A stretch of DNA of 35,217 nt, taken from positions 1-35,217 of the IMG/VR virus record IMGVR_UViG_3300032246_000094; one strand, 5' to 3'. The notes beneath the pieces are model-generated. The model did not search any database and was not told the DNA's origin. It was given only the letters and a program-made list of their open reading frames with translations. Every line of letters begins with the position of its first letter. Position 1 is the first letter of the stretch. The DNA is from a virus. The translations under genes and the position numbers were made by a program. Of the stretch, positions 2,372 to 29,962 are shown piece after piece.

Positions 2372-2719
2372 CTACAATTCGTGACCGTCAAAACCAAGAC
2401 ACGACCCAACAAGCATTTTGCGCCTTTTAAAGGTAGCATCATGCAAATTCCATTTACCAGACTTGTGCCTAGAACAATGGACCATTTCATGGGCCATAGA
2501 ACGGACTACGGTATCATAAAAGCCGCATCTAGCTTTGGATATGCAAAATATATGTTGTTTGCTTAAAGATTCATCATATTCATAAGTAGCCATAACACTA
2601 TGGTCATCAACTATTAAAAATCGACATAATTCACTAGGCGGCAAGTCCCATTTAGTAAACGGTTCGCACTTGGCAAGCGTTAAATAAATTGCTTCAAGAA
2701 CTTTTGGAGTAATTTTCAT
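2372..2719 (-). CDS. SprT-like zinc metalloprotease
   Basis: 115 aa. The active-site helix is SMAHEMVHCSRHKSG, with HEMVH at residues 77-81 and a third probable ligand H93 in WNLHDATFKRR. This HExxH-x(11)-H layout is that of the SprT/Spartan family, whose cellular members cleave DNA-crosslinked proteins. The preceding segment (residues 28-62) matches the family beta-sheet lead-in. No C-terminal zinc ribbon is present; phage versions often lack it. It is the second gene of a leftward pair, starting with a 4-nt ATGA overlap (2716-2719) with the phosphoesterase stop. Substrate unknown; removing proteins from phage or host DNA is an inference. Confidence 0.85.
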   Translation of the reverse strand: MKITPKVLEAIYLTLAKCEPFTKWDLPPSELCRFLIVDDHSVMATYEYDESLSKQHIFCISKARCGFYDTVVRSMAHEMVHCSRHKSGKWNLHDATFKRRKMLVGSCLGFDGHEL

Positions 2720-3705
2720 ACTTTATTGATACAGCCCCTAAATTCAAATTCATCTTCACCAGAAACCATAATTAGTTCTGGCATCAACATTCTGCCATTT
2801 TCCCATGACAAAAGAACGAATCCTGAACGCCAATCGGTAGGGGCATCTTCTGTATAGTGAATAAAGGCTTCAGATTTAGGGTCTGCTAGGCATCCAGTTT
2901 GAACGCCCCATCTGGTTCCATTGGAATCTGTCAATGGCATCGCAGATAGGTTATGGGTATGCCCAGTTATGTAATTTAAGCCGCTATTCAAAGTATTGGC
3001 TCTGCCACCATTAAATCCACCTTTCCATCTATGTTTGATGCAAGTATCTTCATTTACATAGAAGCTCCAACACGATTTCCACATAGGAAAATGGTCTTTA
3101 AGGGAAAACCCTAATACACCTTCATAAGTTGTAATACCTGAATTAGATAAAAAAGTTTCAAACCTGGCATCATGATTGCCTAAAGTCCATATAAGTTCAG
3201 TATTTTTTGATGCGGCTTTTTCTATTTCTGTCATAAAGAATTGGCAAGCCTCAAGTTCTTCTTTAACAGTTGGAGTTTGGCTCCAATTAATTCTAGGATG
3301 GCGGCTTGCTTGGGAACCGTCAAATATATCTCCATTAGCTACGATGGCTTTAATATCAGGTTTGAACGCTTTTATGATGGCTAAAAGGGCTTTAAATGCA
3401 GTTGTTGTTTCGTCTGGTTGAAAATGGGCATCTGAAAATACAACAACTTTGCCTTTTTCTATGTCCATTCCACGCCTTACATTGCCATGCGTTTGCTGTA
3501 TTTTTTTAGTTGGACTAAATCTTTGGTCATTAAATGTTATTAATTCGATGCCGTATCTAGTTTCTAATGTTCGTCTACGATTGTAAATAGACCTTAGTGA
3601 CATACCATGTTTTGATGAAAAGCCGTAAGGACTTCCAATGGCTTTCCATTCTTTTATAAATTCTTCATCTGTAAGATAATAGCTAGTCATAAAAGCCTTA
3701 TTCAT
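2716..3705 (-). CDS. Calcineurin-like metallophosphoesterase
   Basis: 329 aa from ATG 3705; a TTG at 3747 in the same frame would overlap the start of the next gene and is less likely. Metal-binding motifs appear in order: SDAH (91-94), NGDIFD (124-129), GNHD (176-179), a KH pair (about 224-225) and GHTH (248-251). These are the full set for a two-metal phosphoesterase. Residues 10-55 form a separate N-terminal helical part with RSIYNRRRTLETRYG, which looks DNA-binding (HTH-like). Substrate could be DNA ends, nucleotides or phosphoproteins; the sequence does not say. Co-translated with the SprT-like protease. Confidence 0.88.
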   Translation of the reverse strand: MNKAFMTSYYLTDEEFIKEWKAIGSPYGFSSKHGMSLRSIYNRRRTLETRYGIELITFNDQRFSPTKKIQQTHGNVRRGMDIEKGKVVVFSDAHFQPDETTTAFKALLAIIKAFKPDIKAIVANGDIFDGSQASRHPRINWSQTPTVKEELEACQFFMTEIEKAASKNTELIWTLGNHDARFETFLSNSGITTYEGVLGFSLKDHFPMWKSCWSFYVNEDTCIKHRWKGGFNGGRANTLNSGLNYITGHTHNLSAMPLTDSNGTRWGVQTGCLADPKSEAFIHYTEDAPTDWRSGFVLLSWENGRMLMPELIMVSGEDEFEFRGCINKV

Positions 3706-3730
3706 ATAAAGTGTGTAAATACTAACCTCA

Positions 3731-3741
3731 AATACATTACA
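3731..3741 (-). repeat. 11-bp inverted repeat, right arm
   Basis: AATACATTACA, the reverse complement of 2361-2371. It lies in the 41-bp gap between the divergent phosphoesterase and VRR-NUC-like genes, so it may instead be part of a promoter or operator. Confidence 0.5.
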
Positions 3742-3746
3742 AAACA

Positions 3747-4037
3747 ATGACTTACTATAAAAAGCGTGTCGATGAGAACCAATCGCTAATAATAAATACT
3801 TTTATAGCGTTAGGTGCATCTGTATTAAATTTATCTAGAGTTGGTCAAGGCTGTCCTGATTTATTGATAGGTTATAAAGGAAAACATAGCATCTTGGTTG
3901 AAGTAAAGGCAAATGAACGCAAACCTTACACAGAGCCCCAGGTAAAATTCATGCAAAATTGGCGTGGCGGAGCAGTCTGCAGAATTGATTCAGTTGATGC
4001 CGCAATTAGATTGATTAAAATGCTTGACATGGAATAG
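3747..4037 (+). CDS. VRR-NUC / PD-(D/E)XK nuclease-like protein
   Basis: 96 aa. The active-site pattern is clear: GQGCPDLLIGYKG (PD at 37-38) then ILVEVKANE (E52, K54), that is PD-x(13)-E-x-K, the VRR-NUC and Holliday-resolvase-like layout. The tail (EPQVKFMQNWRGG... IDSVDAAIRLIK) follows the usual family ending. Such small phage proteins are usually annotated as endonucleases or junction resolvases, which would suit trimming of branched DNA before packaging. First gene of the long rightward run; its upstream control region is only the 41-bp divergent gap. Confidence 0.85.
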   Translation: MTYYKKRVDENQSLIINTFIALGASVLNLSRVGQGCPDLLIGYKGKHSILVEVKANERKPYTEPQVKFMQNWRGGAVCRIDSVDAAIRLIKMLDME

Positions 4038-13449: not shown

Positions 13450-15875
13450 TGGCAAATCCAGCTAATTCTACCGTTCAGAATCTACTTCCTGTTCAGGCTT
13501 ATTTTAATGAAGATAAAAGTTTTAATACTTTTATAGGCCAAGGAATACCTTTTTATGCGACTGCTAATCCTATTCAATCAGGATTAACCATTACTAATAG
13601 CACGATTAACAGCACCACTATTGGCGCATCTGTGCCTTCAACTGGTGTATTTAGTAGCGGTCAAGTAAATGCAACTCCTGTAAGTAATACAGATATTGCA
13701 AATAAACTTTATGTAGATACTGTAGCGGCAGGATTAAGCTGGAAACAGCCTGTAGCAGTAGCAACTCTTACAAATATTACTTTGTCAGGATTGCAAACTA
13801 TTGATGGCTATACAACGCTTGCTGGTGATAGAGTTTTGGTTAAAAACCAATCTACAGCCGCAAACAATGGTATTTACATAGCCGCTAGTGGTGCATGGGC
13901 TCGTTCTGAGGATGCAAATACTTGGAATGAATTAATCGGTGCTATTACTTTTATTGAATACGGAACTCAAGCGAGTTCTGCTTATTATTGCTCTGCACAA
14001 CCAGGTGGCACATTAGGCGTTACAGCGGTAAATTGGTCTAATTTTAGCGTTTCGGCTACCTATACTGCTGGTACAGGCTTAACCTTAACTGGCTTTAGTT
14101 TTAGCATTACCAATACTGGCGTTAGCGCAAACACTTATGGATCAGCAAGTGCTGTTCCTGTTATTGCAGTAAATGCACAAGGTCAGATTACATCAGCCAC
14201 AACTACAAACATTGCTATTGCCAATACACAAGTTTCAGGGCTTGGCACAATGTCTACGCAAGCGGCTAGTGCTGTAGCTATTACAGGCGGTACGCTTGAT
14301 GGCGTAACTATTGGCGGTACAACTGCTGGTGCAGTAACAGCAACAACATTTACAGGCGCAGGAACAGGATTAACTGGTACTGCATCTAGCCTTTCTATTG
14401 GCGGTACTGCGGCAAGAGCAACTAATATTGCTGGCGGTGCGGCTGGTTCTGTACCTTATCAATCAGGCGCAAACACAACAGTATTTTTAGCGGCGGCAAC
14501 CAATGGTCAGGTATTAACATTAGCATCTGGAGTCCCAACTTGGGCTACTCCTACAACAGGAACGGTTACTTCTGTTAGCGGTACTGGTACAGTAAATGGA
14601 ATTACTTTAACTGGTACAGTTACTTCTAGCGGAAGTATTACATTAGGTGGAACATTAGGTGGCATTGCTAATAGCCAATTAACTAATAGTTCTATTACCT
14701 TTGGCGCAACTGCGGCGGCTTTGGGTACTACAGTAAGTGGCTTTAATGGTGTAACGATTGGTGCTACAACAGCATCAACAGGCGCATTTACTTATTTATC
14801 TACAAGTAGCTCTACAAGCACAACGCCAGTTTTAGGTTTTAACGCATCAAATTGCAATTTAGCATTAGGTGGAACAATTTCAGGTTCTTATTTGCAATCA
14901 GTTATGCAAAATAAGAGTGGAACTGCTGGAGCATCTACAAACTGGGCTATAAGCAATGATTTAGGTACAGATAGCACCTATTATGGTGAATTCGGCATGA
15001 ATTCATCTGTATTTAGTGCATCTACTCCTTCTGATTTTTTCTCGATTAATAATGGAGTTTATTTTTCAGGCCACGATGGTGATATATCTGTTGGCTCTGG
15101 AAATGGATTTAAGACTTATTTGGCTTGGGGAACTACTGGTCAATCAGCCCATGTAATCAACGCTACTGGTGCTATCGGCTTATCTACTAATTTAGGAACT
15201 ACTCCTGCTTTAAGTGGTACAACTGGTTTTGGTACATCAGGACAAGTATTAACTTCTGCTGGTTCTAGTGCGGCTCCTACTTGGACAACGCCTTTTGCTG
15301 GTTTAGCAATTACCGATGACACAAGCACCAATGCAACTCGTTATTTAACGATTACAAGCGCAACAAGCGGTTCTATTACTGCGGCTAATACTAGCTCTAC
15401 CAAACTAAGTTTTAACCCTTCTACAGGGCTTTTAAGCCTTATCTCAGCTACTATGGCTGGCACTTCTAGTGCTTATGGATTTAAAACGCCTAATATTGCA
15501 GAGCCTACAACTGTTTCAGCAACAGCGGCTACAGGCACTATTAACTATGATGTAACCACGCAATCAATTCTTTATTACACCAGCAATGCTTCTGCAAATT
15601 GGACTGTAAACTTTAGGGCATCAAGCGGCACATCATTAAATACATTAATGACCACGAATGACACCATAGCGGTAACATTTATGGTTACTCAAGGTACTAC
15701 AGCGTATTACAACTCTGCCGTAACTATTGATGGAAACTCTGTAACTCCAAAATGGCAAGGTGGAACTGCTCCAACTAGCGGAAATGCAAGCGGTATTGAT
15801 GTTTATAACTATGTCATTACCAAAACAGCATCTGCAACATTTACAGTATTAGCCTCAGTAACTCAATTTAAATAA
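13449..15875 (+). CDS. Long tail fibre protein (808 aa)
   Basis: The N-terminal region (1-60) has LPVQAYFNEDKSFNTFIGQG. Residues about 80-205 hold a recurrent fibre module: DIANKLYVDTVAAGLSWKQP, LSGLQTIDGYTTLAGDRVLV, KNQSTAANNGIYIAASGAW, RSED. The rest is Thr/Ser/Gly/Ala repeats typical of beta-structured fibre shafts, with motifs such as ATNGQVLTLASGVPTW and GTVNGITLTGTVTSSGSITL. Serves host attachment outside the virion. No catalytic or intramolecular-chaperone motif seen. Confidence 0.85.
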   Translation: MANPANSTVQNLLPVQAYFNEDKSFNTFIGQGIPFYATANPIQSGLTITNSTINSTTIGASVPSTGVFSSGQVNATPVSNTDIANKLYVDTVAAGLSWKQPVAVATLTNITLSGLQTIDGYTTLAGDRVLVKNQSTAANNGIYIAASGAWARSEDANTWNELIGAITFIEYGTQASSAYYCSAQPGGTLGVTAVNWSNFSVSATYTAGTGLTLTGFSFSITNTGVSANTYGSASAVPVIAVNAQGQITSATTTNIAIANTQVSGLGTMSTQAASAVAITGGTLDGVTIGGTTAGAVTATTFTGAGTGLTGTASSLSIGGTAARATNIAGGAAGSVPYQSGANTTVFLAAATNGQVLTLASGVPTWATPTTGTVTSVSGTGTVNGITLTGTVTSSGSITLGGTLGGIANSQLTNSSITFGATAAALGTTVSGFNGVTIGATTASTGAFTYLSTSSSTSTTPVLGFNASNCNLALGGTISGSYLQSVMQNKSGTAGASTNWAISNDLGTDSTYYGEFGMNSSVFSASTPSDFFSINNGVYFSGHDGDISVGSGNGFKTYLAWGTTGQSAHVINATGAIGLSTNLGTTPALSGTTGFGTSGQVLTSAGSSAAPTWTTPFAGLAITDDTSTNATRYLTITSATSGSITAANTSSTKLSFNPSTGLLSLISATMAGTSSAYGFKTPNIAEPTTVSATAATGTINYDVTTQSILYYTSNASANWTVNFRASSGTSLNTLMTTNDTIAVTFMVTQGTTAYYNSAVTIDGNSVTPKWQGGTAPTSGNASGIDVYNYVITKTASATFTVLASVTQFK

Positions 15876-17416
15876 TGCCTAGACTATCCAAAATCGGAGC
15901 CGCTTCATTAGCCGCCTTTGGTTGGACTTATGAAACATCTATTCCTATTTCAGCTAGTTATTTAATATTAGCTGGCGGAGGTGGCGGCGGTTACTATGGT
16001 GGTGGTGGAGGTGCTGGTGGTTATCAAGTAGGCACAACAAATATATATGCAAATTTAACTTATACGGTAACTATTGGTGGCGGAGGTTCTGCTGGAGCAT
16101 CAGGTTCAGTAAATGGAGGACAGGGTACAAATTCACAATTTGGTACTTTAACCGCATCTGTTGGTGGTGGTTATGGAGCAGGAACTACATTTCCAACTGC
16201 AAATAATGGCGGAAATGGTGGTTCAGGAGGCGGAGCTTCAACTGGTTCAAGCACTCTTGGAGGCCCAACTGGTTCTGGTGGTACAGGAACATCTGGTCAA
16301 GGTACTGCTGGTGGTGCGGCTTATACTGCTCCTGCTAGTGCTTATTCTGGATTTGGTGGAGGTGGCGGAGCAACTTCTGCTGGTTCTGCCGCAACAATTT
16401 CGGCTTCTGGCAATGGTGGCGGAGGTACTGCATCTTCAATCAGCGGTGCATCAGTAACTTATGCTGGCGGTGGCGGCGGTGGAGCAGATTCTCGTGGTAC
16501 TTCCGCTGGTTCTGGTGGTTCAGGTGGCGGTGGAACAGGAAGCCAAACAACTGGTTCAAATGGTTCAGTAAATACAGGAGGCGGTGCTGGTGGCGGTGGT
16601 TATAACGGAAGTGTATTAGGAAATGGTGGTTCTGGCGGTTCAGGAATAATTATTGTTTCTTACGCTGGAAACCAAGTATTTTCAGGTGGTACTGTAACTT
16701 CAAGCGGTGGAAATACCATACATTCCTTTACAAGTAGCGGAAGCCTTAAAGGTAATGTTACTTATGGCGGTAACTTTGTTTACGCATCTAGTCAATTTTT
16801 ATCTATTGCTGACAATGCCGCATTAGAACCAGGAAGCTCTGATTTTTGTATTGAAGGATGGTATTACCCAACTTCTTTTGCTAATAACTTAGTATTAATA
16901 GGAAAAAGAGCAAATACAACTGCTGTAGGTTCTTATATCATATATGCTGGTTCAGGCGGTGGAGCATTAACTTTTTATGCAAGCTCAAATGGTTCTACTT
17001 ATTTCTTAGCTGGTACAACCATAGGAACAGTAACTCTTAACCAATGGAATTATTTTTCTGTATATAGAAGTGGTAATAATTGGTATGGAACAGTTAATGG
17101 AATTGTAACTTTAATGGCTACAGATGCCAGCGCAATTTATAATAATGCAGAAGCAGTACGAATTGGCGGAGATTCTAATGGTAATTATGCCAATGGTAAT
17201 ATTTCCAATGTTCGGTTAGTCACAGGAAGTGCTGTTTATGGAGCATCTAACTATACTCCGCCAACAAAACCATTAACTGCAATTAGTGGAACACAATTAT
17301 TAACATTACAAAACAGCACAATTATTGACAACAGCACAAACGCATTTACCATTACAAATAATGGTACTGTAACAACAACTATAGTTTCTCCTTTCTCATT
17401 ATCAACAGGATTATAA
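15875..17416 (+). CDS. Glycine-rich adhesin with LamG-like domain (513 aa)
   Basis: Residues 29-265 form a glycine-rich domain that opens with SYLILAGGGGGG and closes with GGSGIIIVSYAG, the frame of the phage Gly-rich tip domain. Polyglycine sheets of this kind form the receptor-binding tip of T-even phage S16. Residues about 300-500 look like a concanavalin/LamG lectin-like fold: QFLSIADNAALEPGSSDFCI, EGWYYPTS, LNQWNYFSVYRSGNNWYGTV, and NGNISNVRLVTGSAVY. This probably recognises host surface sugar or protein. TAATG overlap with the fibre gene. Confidence 0.85.
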   Translation: MPRLSKIGAASLAAFGWTYETSIPISASYLILAGGGGGGYYGGGGGAGGYQVGTTNIYANLTYTVTIGGGGSAGASGSVNGGQGTNSQFGTLTASVGGGYGAGTTFPTANNGGNGGSGGGASTGSSTLGGPTGSGGTGTSGQGTAGGAAYTAPASAYSGFGGGGGATSAGSAATISASGNGGGGTASSISGASVTYAGGGGGGADSRGTSAGSGGSGGGGTGSQTTGSNGSVNTGGGAGGGGYNGSVLGNGGSGGSGIIIVSYAGNQVFSGGTVTSSGGNTIHSFTSSGSLKGNVTYGGNFVYASSQFLSIADNAALEPGSSDFCIEGWYYPTSFANNLVLIGKRANTTAVGSYIIYAGSGGGALTFYASSNGSTYFLAGTTIGTVTLNQWNYFSVYRSGNNWYGTVNGIVTLMATDASAIYNNAEAVRIGGDSNGNYANGNISNVRLVTGSAVYGASNYTPPTKPLTAISGTQLLTLQNSTIIDNSTNAFTITNNGTVTTTIVSPFSLSTGL

Positions 17417-17838: not shown

Positions 17839-18972
17839 ATGGCACAGCTAGTATTTCAATCTGTTTCAGGCGGTACAACTACTTTAAACGGTACAAATAC
17901 TGCTGGAACATACAATTTAACAGTTCCTGCGGCAAATGGAACACTTCTTTATCAAGATACATCTGGAAACATCACATTTGAAAATGTAACAGTTACAGGT
18001 CTTTTAAGCATTACTGGTACAAGTGCATTTAAATTACCAGTAGGAACTACAGTTCAAAGACCTACTCCTGCGGCTGGTCAAATTCGCTATAACACCGATG
18101 GCGGCGGTCTTTATGAAGGATATTTACCTTCAGTTTCTGCTTGGTATAAATTTACTATGGCTCCTGAAGGCCAATACACTATGCAATATTTAGTTATTGC
18201 TGGCGGTGGCGGAGGCGGTGCTAGTGCTGGAGGAGGTGGTGCTGGAGGATTATTAACTGGTAGCGCAACTGTTATTCCATCAACTCTTTACACCGTAACC
18301 ATTGGTGGTGGTGGAGCAGTTAGCACTAATGGAACAAATAGTAGTCTTTCTTCAATAGCTACTGCATTTGGTGGAGGTGCTTACTCTGGAGGTTCTGGTG
18401 GTAGTGGAGGTTCAGGCGCAGGTGGCGTTGGTGGCAATGAATCAGGTGGAGTTGCACAACCAGGTGGTGCAGGAACAACTTATCAAGGAAACGCTGGTGG
18501 TTATGGTGGTTACCATGAGCCAGGAAATGTAAGTACAGGCGGTAGCGGAGGCGGTGGTGGTGCTAGTGCAGTTGGAGTTGCTGGTTCAGCATCAGTAGGC
18601 TCTAGTAATGGTAATGGCGGTGCTGGTGGTGCTGGTTATGCTTCTGCTATTACAGGAACGATTGTTACTTATGCTGGTGGTGGTGGTGGCGGTGCTGGCG
18701 GTGGCGGTGCTACTGGTGGTTCTGGTGGTGCTGGTGGTGGCGGTGCTGGTGGCGGTGGCACAAGTGCTGGTACTGCTGGATCTGTTAATACTGGTGGCGG
18801 CGGTGGTGGCGGTGGCTATGGCGGAAACGGTGCGGCTGGTGGCTCAGGACTTGTCATTCTTTCTGTTCCTTCAACTAACTACACAGGCACAGTAACTGGT
18901 TCACCAACTGTAACTACAAGCGGTGCTAATACTATTATGACTTTTACTATCTCTGGTACATATACAGCATGA
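17839..18972 (+). CDS. Second glycine-rich tail adhesin (377 aa)
   Basis: N-terminal 100 residues are a beta-rich attachment part (GGTTTLNGTNTAGTYNLTVP, AAGQIRYNTDGGGLYEGYLP). Residues about 115-350 are a glycine-rich domain framed by MQYLVIAGGGGGG and GGSGLVILSVP, paralogous to the domain in the 15875 gene but longer and without a LamG end. It ends with a short beta tail (TIMTFTISGTYTA). Probably an alternative or additional receptor-binding tip. Ribosome site AAGGA upstream; ATGA overlap with the next gene. Confidence 0.83.
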   Translation: MAQLVFQSVSGGTTTLNGTNTAGTYNLTVPAANGTLLYQDTSGNITFENVTVTGLLSITGTSAFKLPVGTTVQRPTPAAGQIRYNTDGGGLYEGYLPSVSAWYKFTMAPEGQYTMQYLVIAGGGGGGASAGGGGAGGLLTGSATVIPSTLYTVTIGGGGAVSTNGTNSSLSSIATAFGGGAYSGGSGGSGGSGAGGVGGNESGGVAQPGGAGTTYQGNAGGYGGYHEPGNVSTGGSGGGGGASAVGVAGSASVGSSNGNGGAGGAGYASAITGTIVTYAGGGGGGAGGGGATGGSGGAGGGGAGGGGTSAGTAGSVNTGGGGGGGGYGGNGAAGGSGLVILSVPSTNYTGTVTGSPTVTTSGANTIMTFTISGTYTA

Positions 18973-28535: not shown

Positions 28536-28948
28536 TGTTCCCTTTACCATTATCGACATATATTATGATTGCCCTATCTGTTGCCGCATTAGGCGGTATT
28601 GGCTATGGTAAATATGAGTCTGCAAAGTATGATACTTATGTAGCTAAAGCAGAATTAGCGGCTAAAGAGCAAGAAATGATTAACCAAGCAAAAGCCAAAG
28701 AAGCCAACCAAGTAACAGAAAAGGTAAAAAATGACTATCAAAACAAGCTCAATCTTATTAAGTCTACTTATGGTGGGTTGCGCCTCTCCAGTAGCAGTCA
28801 AACAGGCACAATTTCCAACACCACCAGCGCAACTGATGGCACAGCCACCGACCCACAATTTATTGTTAAATGTGCTATCACCACGCAACAACTAGAATCA
28901 TTGCAAGCGTGGCTCAATGAACAAATAGGTATTTTTAATGCTAAGTAG
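28535..28948 (+). CDS. i-spanin, Rz-like (137 aa)
   Basis: N-terminal transmembrane anchor (residues about 8-25, YIMIALSVAALGGIGYG) and then a periplasmic coiled coil (YVAKAELAAKEQEMINQAKA). These two parts make a typical Rz inner-membrane spanin. The Rz1-like gene is contained within it in the +1 frame (28731-28895). The C-terminal QQLESLQAWLNEQIGIF is another helix. Starts at TAATG overlap and overlaps the endolysin by 11 nt. Confidence 0.85.
   Translation: MFPLPLSTYIMIALSVAALGGIGYGKYESAKYDTYVAKAELAAKEQEMINQAKAKEANQVTEKVKNDYQNKLNLIKSTYGGLRLSSSSQTGTISNTTSATDGTATDPQFIVKCAITTQQLESLQAWLNEQIGIFNAK
28731..28895 (+). CDS. o-spanin, Rz1-like lipoprotein, embedded in the i-spanin gene
   Basis: 54 aa read in the +1 frame relative to the i-spanin. 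ATG 28731 follows AAGG at 28721-28724. The signal peptide (MTIKTSSILLSLLMVGC) ends in a lipobox with C17, so the mature protein would be an outer-membrane lipoprotein. It is short and proline-rich (FPTPPAQL, AQPPTH), as o-spanins are. Full embedding resembles the lambda Rz/Rz1 arrangement. Together with the i-spanin it fuses inner and outer membrane in the last step of lysis, and it shows that the host is Gram-negative. Confidence 0.88.
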   Translation: MTIKTSSILLSLLMVGCASPVAVKQAQFPTPPAQLMAQPPTHNLLLNVLSPRNN

Positions 28949-29537
28949 TGATAAGTTAATTGCTTTAGGTATAGATACAAAATGGTTAAAAGTTTTAGAA
29001 TTTACTTTTGCCAAGTACCAAATAAACACACCTACAAGACAGGCGGCTTTTATTGGGCAATGCCAACATGAATCAAACAACTTCCGAACTTTGGAAGAAA
29101 ATCTACATTACTCAGCCGATGCACTTATGCGTGTTTGGCCCAGTAGATTTCCTAATATCGATGTGGCTAATAAGTATGCAAATGATCCTGAAAAGATAGC
29201 TAATAAAGTTTATGGCGGCAGAGCAGACCTTGGCAATGTGGAAGATGGCGATGGTTGGAAGTTTCATGGCAGAGGCGTTATACAGCTCACAGGGCGTTCT
29301 AATTACACAGTATGTGGCGATGCTATAGGACAACCATTAACAAGCAATCCAAGCCTTCTTTTAGACCCTGAATGGGCTTGTTTATCTGCTGGATGGTTTT
29401 GGAACAAGAAAAACCTTAATTCTTTAGCTGATATTGAGGATTGGACCACAATGACACGAAGAATAAATGGCGGAACAATAGGTTTAAGCGATAGAATAAA
29501 CAAAATCCATAAAGCTATGGATATTTTAGGAGCATAA
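28938..29537 (+). CDS. Endolysin, GH19 chitinase-like
   Basis: 199 aa. Glycoside hydrolase 19 motifs: RQAAFIGQCQHESNNFRTLE (probable acid E45, second E53/E54), LHYSADALMRVWPSRFP, YANDPEKIANKVYGGR, DLGNVEDGDGWKFHGRGVIQ then LTGRSNY, and the C-terminal WTTMTRRINGGTIGLSDR. It cleaves glycan strands of peptidoglycan. No signal peptide is seen, so export would rely on the holin. Its start lies inside the i-spanin end (11-nt overlap). Confidence 0.92.
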   Translation: MLSSDKLIALGIDTKWLKVLEFTFAKYQINTPTRQAAFIGQCQHESNNFRTLEENLHYSADALMRVWPSRFPNIDVANKYANDPEKIANKVYGGRADLGNVEDGDGWKFHGRGVIQLTGRSNYTVCGDAIGQPLTSNPSLLLDPEWACLSAGWFWNKKNLNSLADIEDWTTMTRRINGGTIGLSDRINKIHKAMDILGA

Positions 29538-29538
29538 A

Positions 29539-29685
29539 ATGCGTGAAGAAAAAGAATCTAAAGCAATGCAAAAGCGTGAAAACAAAGAAATGCTTATGTT
29601 ACGCAATGGCATCTTTGAAGTTAAAAGAGAATTAAAAAAGCATGAGAAAGAGCCTATGAATAAGGCTCATCCTATGAAGAAATAA
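29539..29685 (+). CDS. Small charged protein (48 aa)
   Basis: Starts 1 nt after the endolysin stop codon. Lys/Glu/Met-rich helical product (MREEKESKAMQKRENKEMLM ... KEPMNKAHPMKK). Unrecognised. Its stop codon is inside the 5' arm of the structured element at 29682-29777. No clear ribosome site apart from AGGAGC near 29529-29534. Confidence 0.6.
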   Translation: MREEKESKAMQKRENKEMLMLRNGIFEVKRELKKHEKEPMNKAHPMKK

Positions 29686-29777
29686 CGGCATCAATTTGGC
29701 AACTACATCTTATAAGGTGGAAAGCCGAAAAACACCTTATTTGTTGCATCCTTGATTGTCGGCTTAACTGCCGTTAT
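29682..29777. ncRNA. Candidate pseudoknotted structured RNA between converging operons
   Basis: All pairings are Watson-Crick. Outer stem ATAACGGCA (29682-29690) with TGCCGTTAT (29769-29777), 9 bp; TCAA (29691-29694) with TTGA (29752-29755); GCAAC (29699-29703) with GTTGC (29743-29747); inner hairpin ATAAGGTG (29712-29719) with CACCTTAT (29733-29740), 8 bp and a 13-nt loop. The loop segment AAGCCGA (29722-29728) pairs with TCGGCTT (29759-29765), a 7-bp pseudoknot. No U-tract follows. Without G-U pairs, the same fold is possible on either strand. It spans the whole gap and both stop codons. A bidirectional terminator or 3'-end protector is most likely. Confidence 0.65.
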
Positions 29778-29962
29778 ATAAGCTGTATTACTGGCTTTTT
29801 ATATTCCACATGATCTAATGCCGCTTGCCAGGCTTGTGTCCAAAGCCGTAAAGCATTAGAACCTTCATAAAAGAAATCAGGATAGAGTGCAAAAAACGCT
29901 TCTTCGCAATCATCTGATGGCACTTTCATATTTCCGCCAAACGGAACATTTTCTTCTGTCAT
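29774..29962 (-). CDS. Small hypothetical protein (62 aa)
   Basis: Last gene of the leftward operon. Starts with ATGA overlap at 29959-29962. Sequence has EAFFALYPDFFYEGSNALRL and WTQAWQAALDHV, aromatic and helical, a type often seen among small phage proteins of unknown function. Its stop codon TAA is part of the 3' arm of the structured element. Confidence 0.7.
   Translation of the reverse strand: MTEENVPFGGNMKVPSDDCEEAFFALYPDFFYEGSNALRLWTQAWQAALDHVEYKKPVIQLI

Follow-up and report, generated by a model that had tools for sequence, protein, structure and literature searches.

Positions 29682-29777 of the window, by which we mean the whole stretch of 35,217 bases that was analysed, a P22-like phage record (portal, scaffold and terminase matches), carry a pseudoknotted element that almost certainly belongs to a real family of structured RNAs without a counterpart in Rfam. 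With the same near certainty, its RNA sense is the minus strand of the window, since wobble pairs, the orientation of upstream genes and a one-sided U-tract all agree on this strand.

Structure of the element in the window

Every pair that the original prediction had drawn between 29682 and 29777, in a 9-bp outer stem, inner helices, an 8-bp hairpin and a 7-bp pseudoknot, was found where it had been placed, giving the four stems P1 to P4 plus the pseudoknot (Table 1). The claim that both stop codons lie in the outer arms was also confirmed: the 62-aa leftward gene ends inside the P1 5' arm (29769-29777) and the 48-aa rightward ORF ends, on the other strand, inside the P1 3' arm (29682-29690). 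When folded without the pseudoknot, the 96-nt stretch reached -25.5 kcal/mol on the plus strand (z -2.7; matched or bettered by 1 of 200 shuffles) and -23.3 kcal/mol on the minus strand (z -2.0; matched or bettered by 7 of 200); such single-sequence folding energies are moderately unusual and would, alone, be weak evidence for a structure. P2 with the internal loop and P3, and P4 with the pseudoknot, each comprise 13 layers in the window's type, and this equality in length suggests that they may be arranged as two parallel stacks.

Table 1. Coordinates of the element, of its parts and of the adjacent features in the window
Feature	Positions	Strand	Details
Whole element	29682-29777	minus	RNA 5' end at 29777; covariance-model score 106 bits; only one copy in the window
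P1 5' arm (RNA sense)	29769-29777	minus	pairs with 29682-29690; 9 Watson-Crick pairs
Pseudoknot strand a, RNA AAGCCGA	29759-29765	minus	3 nt past P1 in RNA sense; pairs with 29722-29728
P2 arm, RNA UCAA	29752-29755	minus	pairs with 29691-29694
Internal loop strand GGAU (RNA sense)	29748-29751	minus	
P3 arm GCAAC (RNA sense)	29743-29747	minus	pairs with 29699-29703
P4 arm, RNA AUAAGGUG	29733-29740	minus	pairs with 29712-29719; 8 bp in the window
Pseudoknot strand b, RNA UCGGCUU	29722-29728	minus	P4 apical loop
P4 arm, RNA CACCUUAU	29712-29719	minus	pairs with 29733-29740
P3 arm GUUGC (RNA sense)	29699-29703	minus	pairs with 29743-29747
Internal loop strand CAAA (RNA sense)	29695-29698	minus	
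P2 arm, RNA UUGA	29691-29694	minus	pairs with 29752-29755
P1 3' arm (RNA sense)	29682-29690	minus	pairs with 29769-29777
U-rich stretch UUCUUCAUAG after P1 in RNA sense	29672-29681	minus	
Second, ordinary leftward terminator-like hairpin	29650-29668	minus	about 13 nt beyond the element, inside the 48-aa ORF; consensus scan
Endolysin gene, late operon	28938-29537	plus	phrog_181 endolysin, E 2e-77
48-aa ORF, final late gene, converging on the element	29539-29685	plus	conserved downstream of the endolysin in relatives
62-aa leftward gene, 3' end abutting the element	29774-29962	minus	ORF list; conserved in 76 loci

Covariation across the five helices

Six pattern scans of IMG/VR, in which most patterns contained letters of the conserved core, yielded at least 176 distinct relatives of the element in at least 58 clusters at 80% identity. 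Covariation among homologues had been proposed as the check on the predicted fold, and it was found: compensatory changes occur in all five helices and, in an alignment of 56 sequences, 27 of the 31 pairs showed changes on both sides, with 91.5% of the cells paired. The covariation score of these 56 relatives was 0.603. Column shuffles gave 0.178, with none of the 500 scoring as high as the true alignment, and sliding the structure along the alignment never gave more than 0.136.

The pseudoknot helix was paired in 97.4% of the cells across the aligned relatives, and the family uses at least 35 different pseudoknot sequence pairs, at least 26 of them fully Watson-Crick (for example AAGCCGA/TCGGCTT, AACGGGG/CCCCGTT, AACTGGA/TCCAGTT and AAACTAC/GTAGTTT). 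P2 occurs in compensatory forms such as TGAA/TTCA and ACAA/TTGT, among others, while P3 is invariant in the window's group and takes the forms GTAGC/GCTAC, GTTGC/GCAAC and other pairs in relatives. The outer 6 bp of P4 are general across the family, all six with two-sided changes; P1 has a median length of 6-8 bp and its 5' arm diverges freely in sequence with the pairing maintained. We also observed a longer subtype in which an additional, AT-rich hairpin separates P3 from P4 (L181, L206, L175, L205, L193, L052 and L645).

Besides these variable helices, the family has a conserved core. In RNA sense, it consists of GUU-AA, with the AA in the pseudoknot, of GGAU/CAAA in the internal loop and of an apical loop rich in U. 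GGAUG is present in every cluster representative among the matches listed and was itself part of the search patterns. Because most patterns contained conserved letters, the last scan omitted CAAAU, and this strand was then found in 68 of the 74 pseudoknot-complementary matches listed from that pattern. The strings CATCC, TTAAC and AAAA were shared by the patterns and cannot be called invariant on present evidence.

The RNA is read from the minus strand

Non-Watson-Crick cells were counted in P1, P2 and the pseudoknot, over inner pairs only and without the positions that the finder had fixed. In the plus reading, they amounted to 36 A.C versus 0 G.T among the matches listed, which correspond to G.U wobbles on the minus strand. 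Counted once per cluster, again among the matches listed, the ratio was 26 A.C to 0 G.T, for which the nominal p of 3e-8 is optimistic because the clusters are related to one another; when P3 and P4 were included, in a smaller alignment, the ratio was 33 to 11, a figure to which misaligned registers added some noise. The preceding gene was co-directional with the minus strand in 143 of 157 flank-complete elements among the matches listed, and at least 3 of the 14 exceptions were genes that the ORF caller had missed. On the minus strand, at least 5 T in 8 positions were found directly 3' of P1 in 57% of the listed relatives (background 11.5%), and the same test on the plus strand gave 22% of the listed relatives (background 15%); averaged over clusters among the matches listed, the values were 40% for minus and 20% for plus.

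The proposal that both strands can form the same topology thus stands for the sequence of the window and falls for the family, whose wobbles fit the minus strand only. Likewise, a U-tract had been described as lacking, which is correct for the plus strand and incorrect for the minus strand, where P1 (9 bp) is followed by UUCUUCAU.

Genomic setting and neighbouring genes

The leftward set of genes beside the element in the window consists of the 62-aa gene and genes for a RecE-like exonuclease, an HNH endonuclease and a Sak-like annealing protein. Two protein searches gave about 150 loci, among which otherwise aligning junctions were seen with and without the element: it was found in 33 of the 59 distinct endolysin-to-62-aa intervals and it is absent from L013, where the 48-aa stop runs directly into the 62-aa gene. 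In those junction loci that carry it, the stems and the pseudoknot vary in concert, and the stop codons in the window's group are mostly no more than a few nt from P1. The second hairpin (29650-29668; GAGCC...GGCTC, then T-rich) recurs in many relatives. Elsewhere in the window, a metallo-phosphoesterase gene (2716-3747, minus) lies on the strand opposite to its neighbours, and two genes (15875-17416 and 17839-18972) both match phrog_2295, of unknown function, perhaps through a duplication.

The original prediction assigned the element to the gap between converging operons, which was not supported by the family: of the 157 flank-complete elements among the matches listed, 90 have a co-directional and 65 a convergent gene next downstream. 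Individual gene contexts may be wrong because ORFs were called by length only. Some of the co-directional genes have their start codon 0-23 nt past the element, and in L513, L520, L531 and L568 a tRNA-Asn starts 2-3 nt past it in RNA sense. Some copies are followed by promoter-like sites, such as TTGATT-17-TATAAT in L164. Near-palindromes resembling AGGGTAAACACCT recur beside promoter-like sites just behind the element (L164, L525 and L555) and are possibly repressor operators. Among the matches listed, a U-tract was seen in 75% of the elements before a distant co-directional gene, in 56% before a convergent gene and in 34% where a gene starts within 45 nt.

The genes upstream of the element are mutually unrelated (exonuclease-like, YqaJ-like recombinase/nuclease, PPK2, FkbM-like methyltransferase and small unknown proteins). 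A gene for a PPK2-family polyphosphate kinase directly precedes the element in the leftward operon of L038, L046, L052 and L118. A broad model run on 34 whole records matched 28 of them, with exactly one copy in each (28/28).

Searches for known families

The expectation that the element belongs to no known family was supported by the members searched. At the gathering level of Rfam 15, no family was matched by the window element or by the elements of 19 further loci, and the relaxed level gave only chance-like fragments for the window, L164 and L017. The Rfam models of twister, pistol, hatchet, hammerhead and HDV ribozymes did not match these three sequences, and none of them matched the 19 further loci at gathering level. 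RT-3 RNA (RF03068) resembles the element at 33 of 148 positions on the plus strand (GGCAAC ... GGAAAGCCGA); we rejected it as a chance match, at 16.5 bits and E 0.066 versus a threshold of 40.5, which is partial, on the wrong strand, made of different pairs and not seen in L164 or L017. A riboswitch or 5' leader was rejected as well, because the downstream gene is convergent in 65 of 157 cases among the matches listed (about 40%), which leaves no co-directional gene to control behind these elements.

BLAST of the elements against INPHARED phages and PLSDB plasmids gave short chance matches only, and a model search of seven INPHARED phages chosen as relatives of the window gave none. No element was found in 401 bacterial genomes of one betaproteobacterial family, in a search run without a positive control, and, of the matches from one loose pattern scan of genome contigs, those put through a model search proved to be chance. 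A literature search that covered few subscription papers retrieved no description of such an element. One contig that carries the pseudoknot element, L683, also carries a Betaproteobacteria-1 RNA (RF02932, 93 bits) at 3553-3676 on the plus strand, and this co-occurrence is a hint of betaproteobacterial hosts.

GOLLD RNA is a conserved structured RNA from lake metagenomes that is tied to phages and tRNAs; the element differs from it in size, at about 95 nt, and has an unrelated fold.

Discussion

Our tentative preference, at somewhat less than even confidence, is that the element serves the leftward transcript as a 3'-UTR module that would form or protect an RNA 3' end; this activity, like the part played by the conserved core, is inferred. 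Read-through from the preceding gene would place the element in the leftward 3' untranslated region, where P2, the GGAU/CAAA internal loop and P3 would stack in the minus-strand fold and P4 would fold back, in a predicted arrangement that lets its U-flanked loop pair beside P1. The folded domain may then draw both arms of P1 together, and P1 with the U-rich stretch could act as an atypical intrinsic terminator or as a barrier to 3'-exonucleases that fixes the end of the mRNA. Elements immediately followed by a gene or a tRNA often lack the U-tract, and there the module might only mark or protect the processed end of the upstream message. Such a module would account for the strand, for the place behind a stop codon and for the U-tracts, which are seen most often where ending a transcript would be useful. 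It resembles an intrinsic (Rho-independent) terminator in that a U-rich stretch often comes after its closing stem, P1, at the ends of transcripts, but P1 encloses an 80-nt conserved pseudoknotted domain, roughly half of the members are without a U-tract and the element is also found inside operons. Several observations speak against the 3'-UTR module: the U-tract is missing in about 43% of the listed members and in about 60% when averaged over clusters, four copies have a tRNA-Asn within 3 nt and several have a start codon 0-23 nt off, the conserved internal-loop letters would be unneeded by an ordinary terminator, the window has a second terminator-like hairpin beyond the element, and a generic 3'-end device that occurs just once in every matching record would be unusual. 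Such a module does not alone account for the conserved core and the single copy, which would better fit a trans-acting RNA or a ribozyme.

A trans-acting small RNA, cut from the 3' ends of operon mRNAs and directed at a host or phage protein or RNA, is possible, and we consider it on the unlikely side. It requires one copy per genome in merely a transcribed spot, which agrees with the single copy in 28 of 28 matching records, with the many unrelated neighbours (PPK2, YqaJ-like nuclease, FkbM-like methyltransferase and others) and with a presence that differs between close relatives. Like bacterial and phage small RNAs derived from 3'-UTRs, the element lies behind a stop codon with a folded body and a frequent U-rich end, and the U-tract with the closed P1 resembles the 3' end of a small RNA. 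Unlike them, it has no conserved exposed stretch that we recognised as a base-pairing seed, so that a small RNA of this kind would need to bind a protein, and its own promoter is not evident because the preceding gene often abuts the element. A self-cleaving ribozyme of a new small class, separating the cistrons of phage transcripts, seems quite unlikely to us. Its size, pseudoknot, conserved loop letters and transcribed orientation, together with the lack of a gene association, are what small ribozyme classes look like in comparative searches, and hammerheads are known from the intergenic regions of phages PaP3 and Bcep176 (PMC3088659). Small phage ribozymes (hammerhead, PMC3088659; pistol, PMC4604425; twister) are likewise compact, conserved and structured intergenic RNAs, but none of the Rfam models of these classes, nor any other Rfam ribozyme family at the thresholds used, matches the element; furthermore, no cleavage site can be proposed and the enrichment of U-tracts behind P1 would be unexpected from self-cleavage. 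More broadly, we regard it as rather unlikely that the element represents a new class of RNA machine widespread among phages. Such a machine could be a new self-cleaving ribozyme, or else a terminator responsive to a ligand or protein, in which a pseudoknotted sensing domain would control whether the terminator stem closes at an operon's end.

That the element is a mobile or selfish DNA element inserted into gene gaps appears improbable. Its presence in 33 of the 59 distinct endolysin-to-62-aa intervals, with absence from the rest, and its scatter over unrelated gene contexts would fit mobility, but we recognised no terminal or target-site repeats by eye, the orientation is strongly tied to transcription (143/157, among the matches listed), each matching record has one copy, and the covariation of the pseudoknot with one-sided wobbles points to a function as RNA. 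Termination of both converging operons by one bidirectional element is the reading that we find hardest to credit, at a very low probability: the element does lie exactly between both stop codons in the window, with a perfectly complementary P1, but wobble pairs and U-tract enrichment are essentially one-stranded and most of the listed flank-complete relatives lie away from convergent junctions. The proposal that the element stops both transcripts is disfavoured because its U-tracts and wobbles are one-sided, and the companion proposals, protection of 3' ends and a separate small RNA, are candidate functions with regard to the leftward transcript alone.

The element represents a structured RNA that is abundant in environmental phages and has no match in Rfam, and it is testable at once, with its strand, helices, pseudoknot and conserved core defined and two covariance models in hand. 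Since each genome has a single copy and the gene contexts are many, it does something that phages repeatedly keep: it may end or protect their transcripts, or act on the host.
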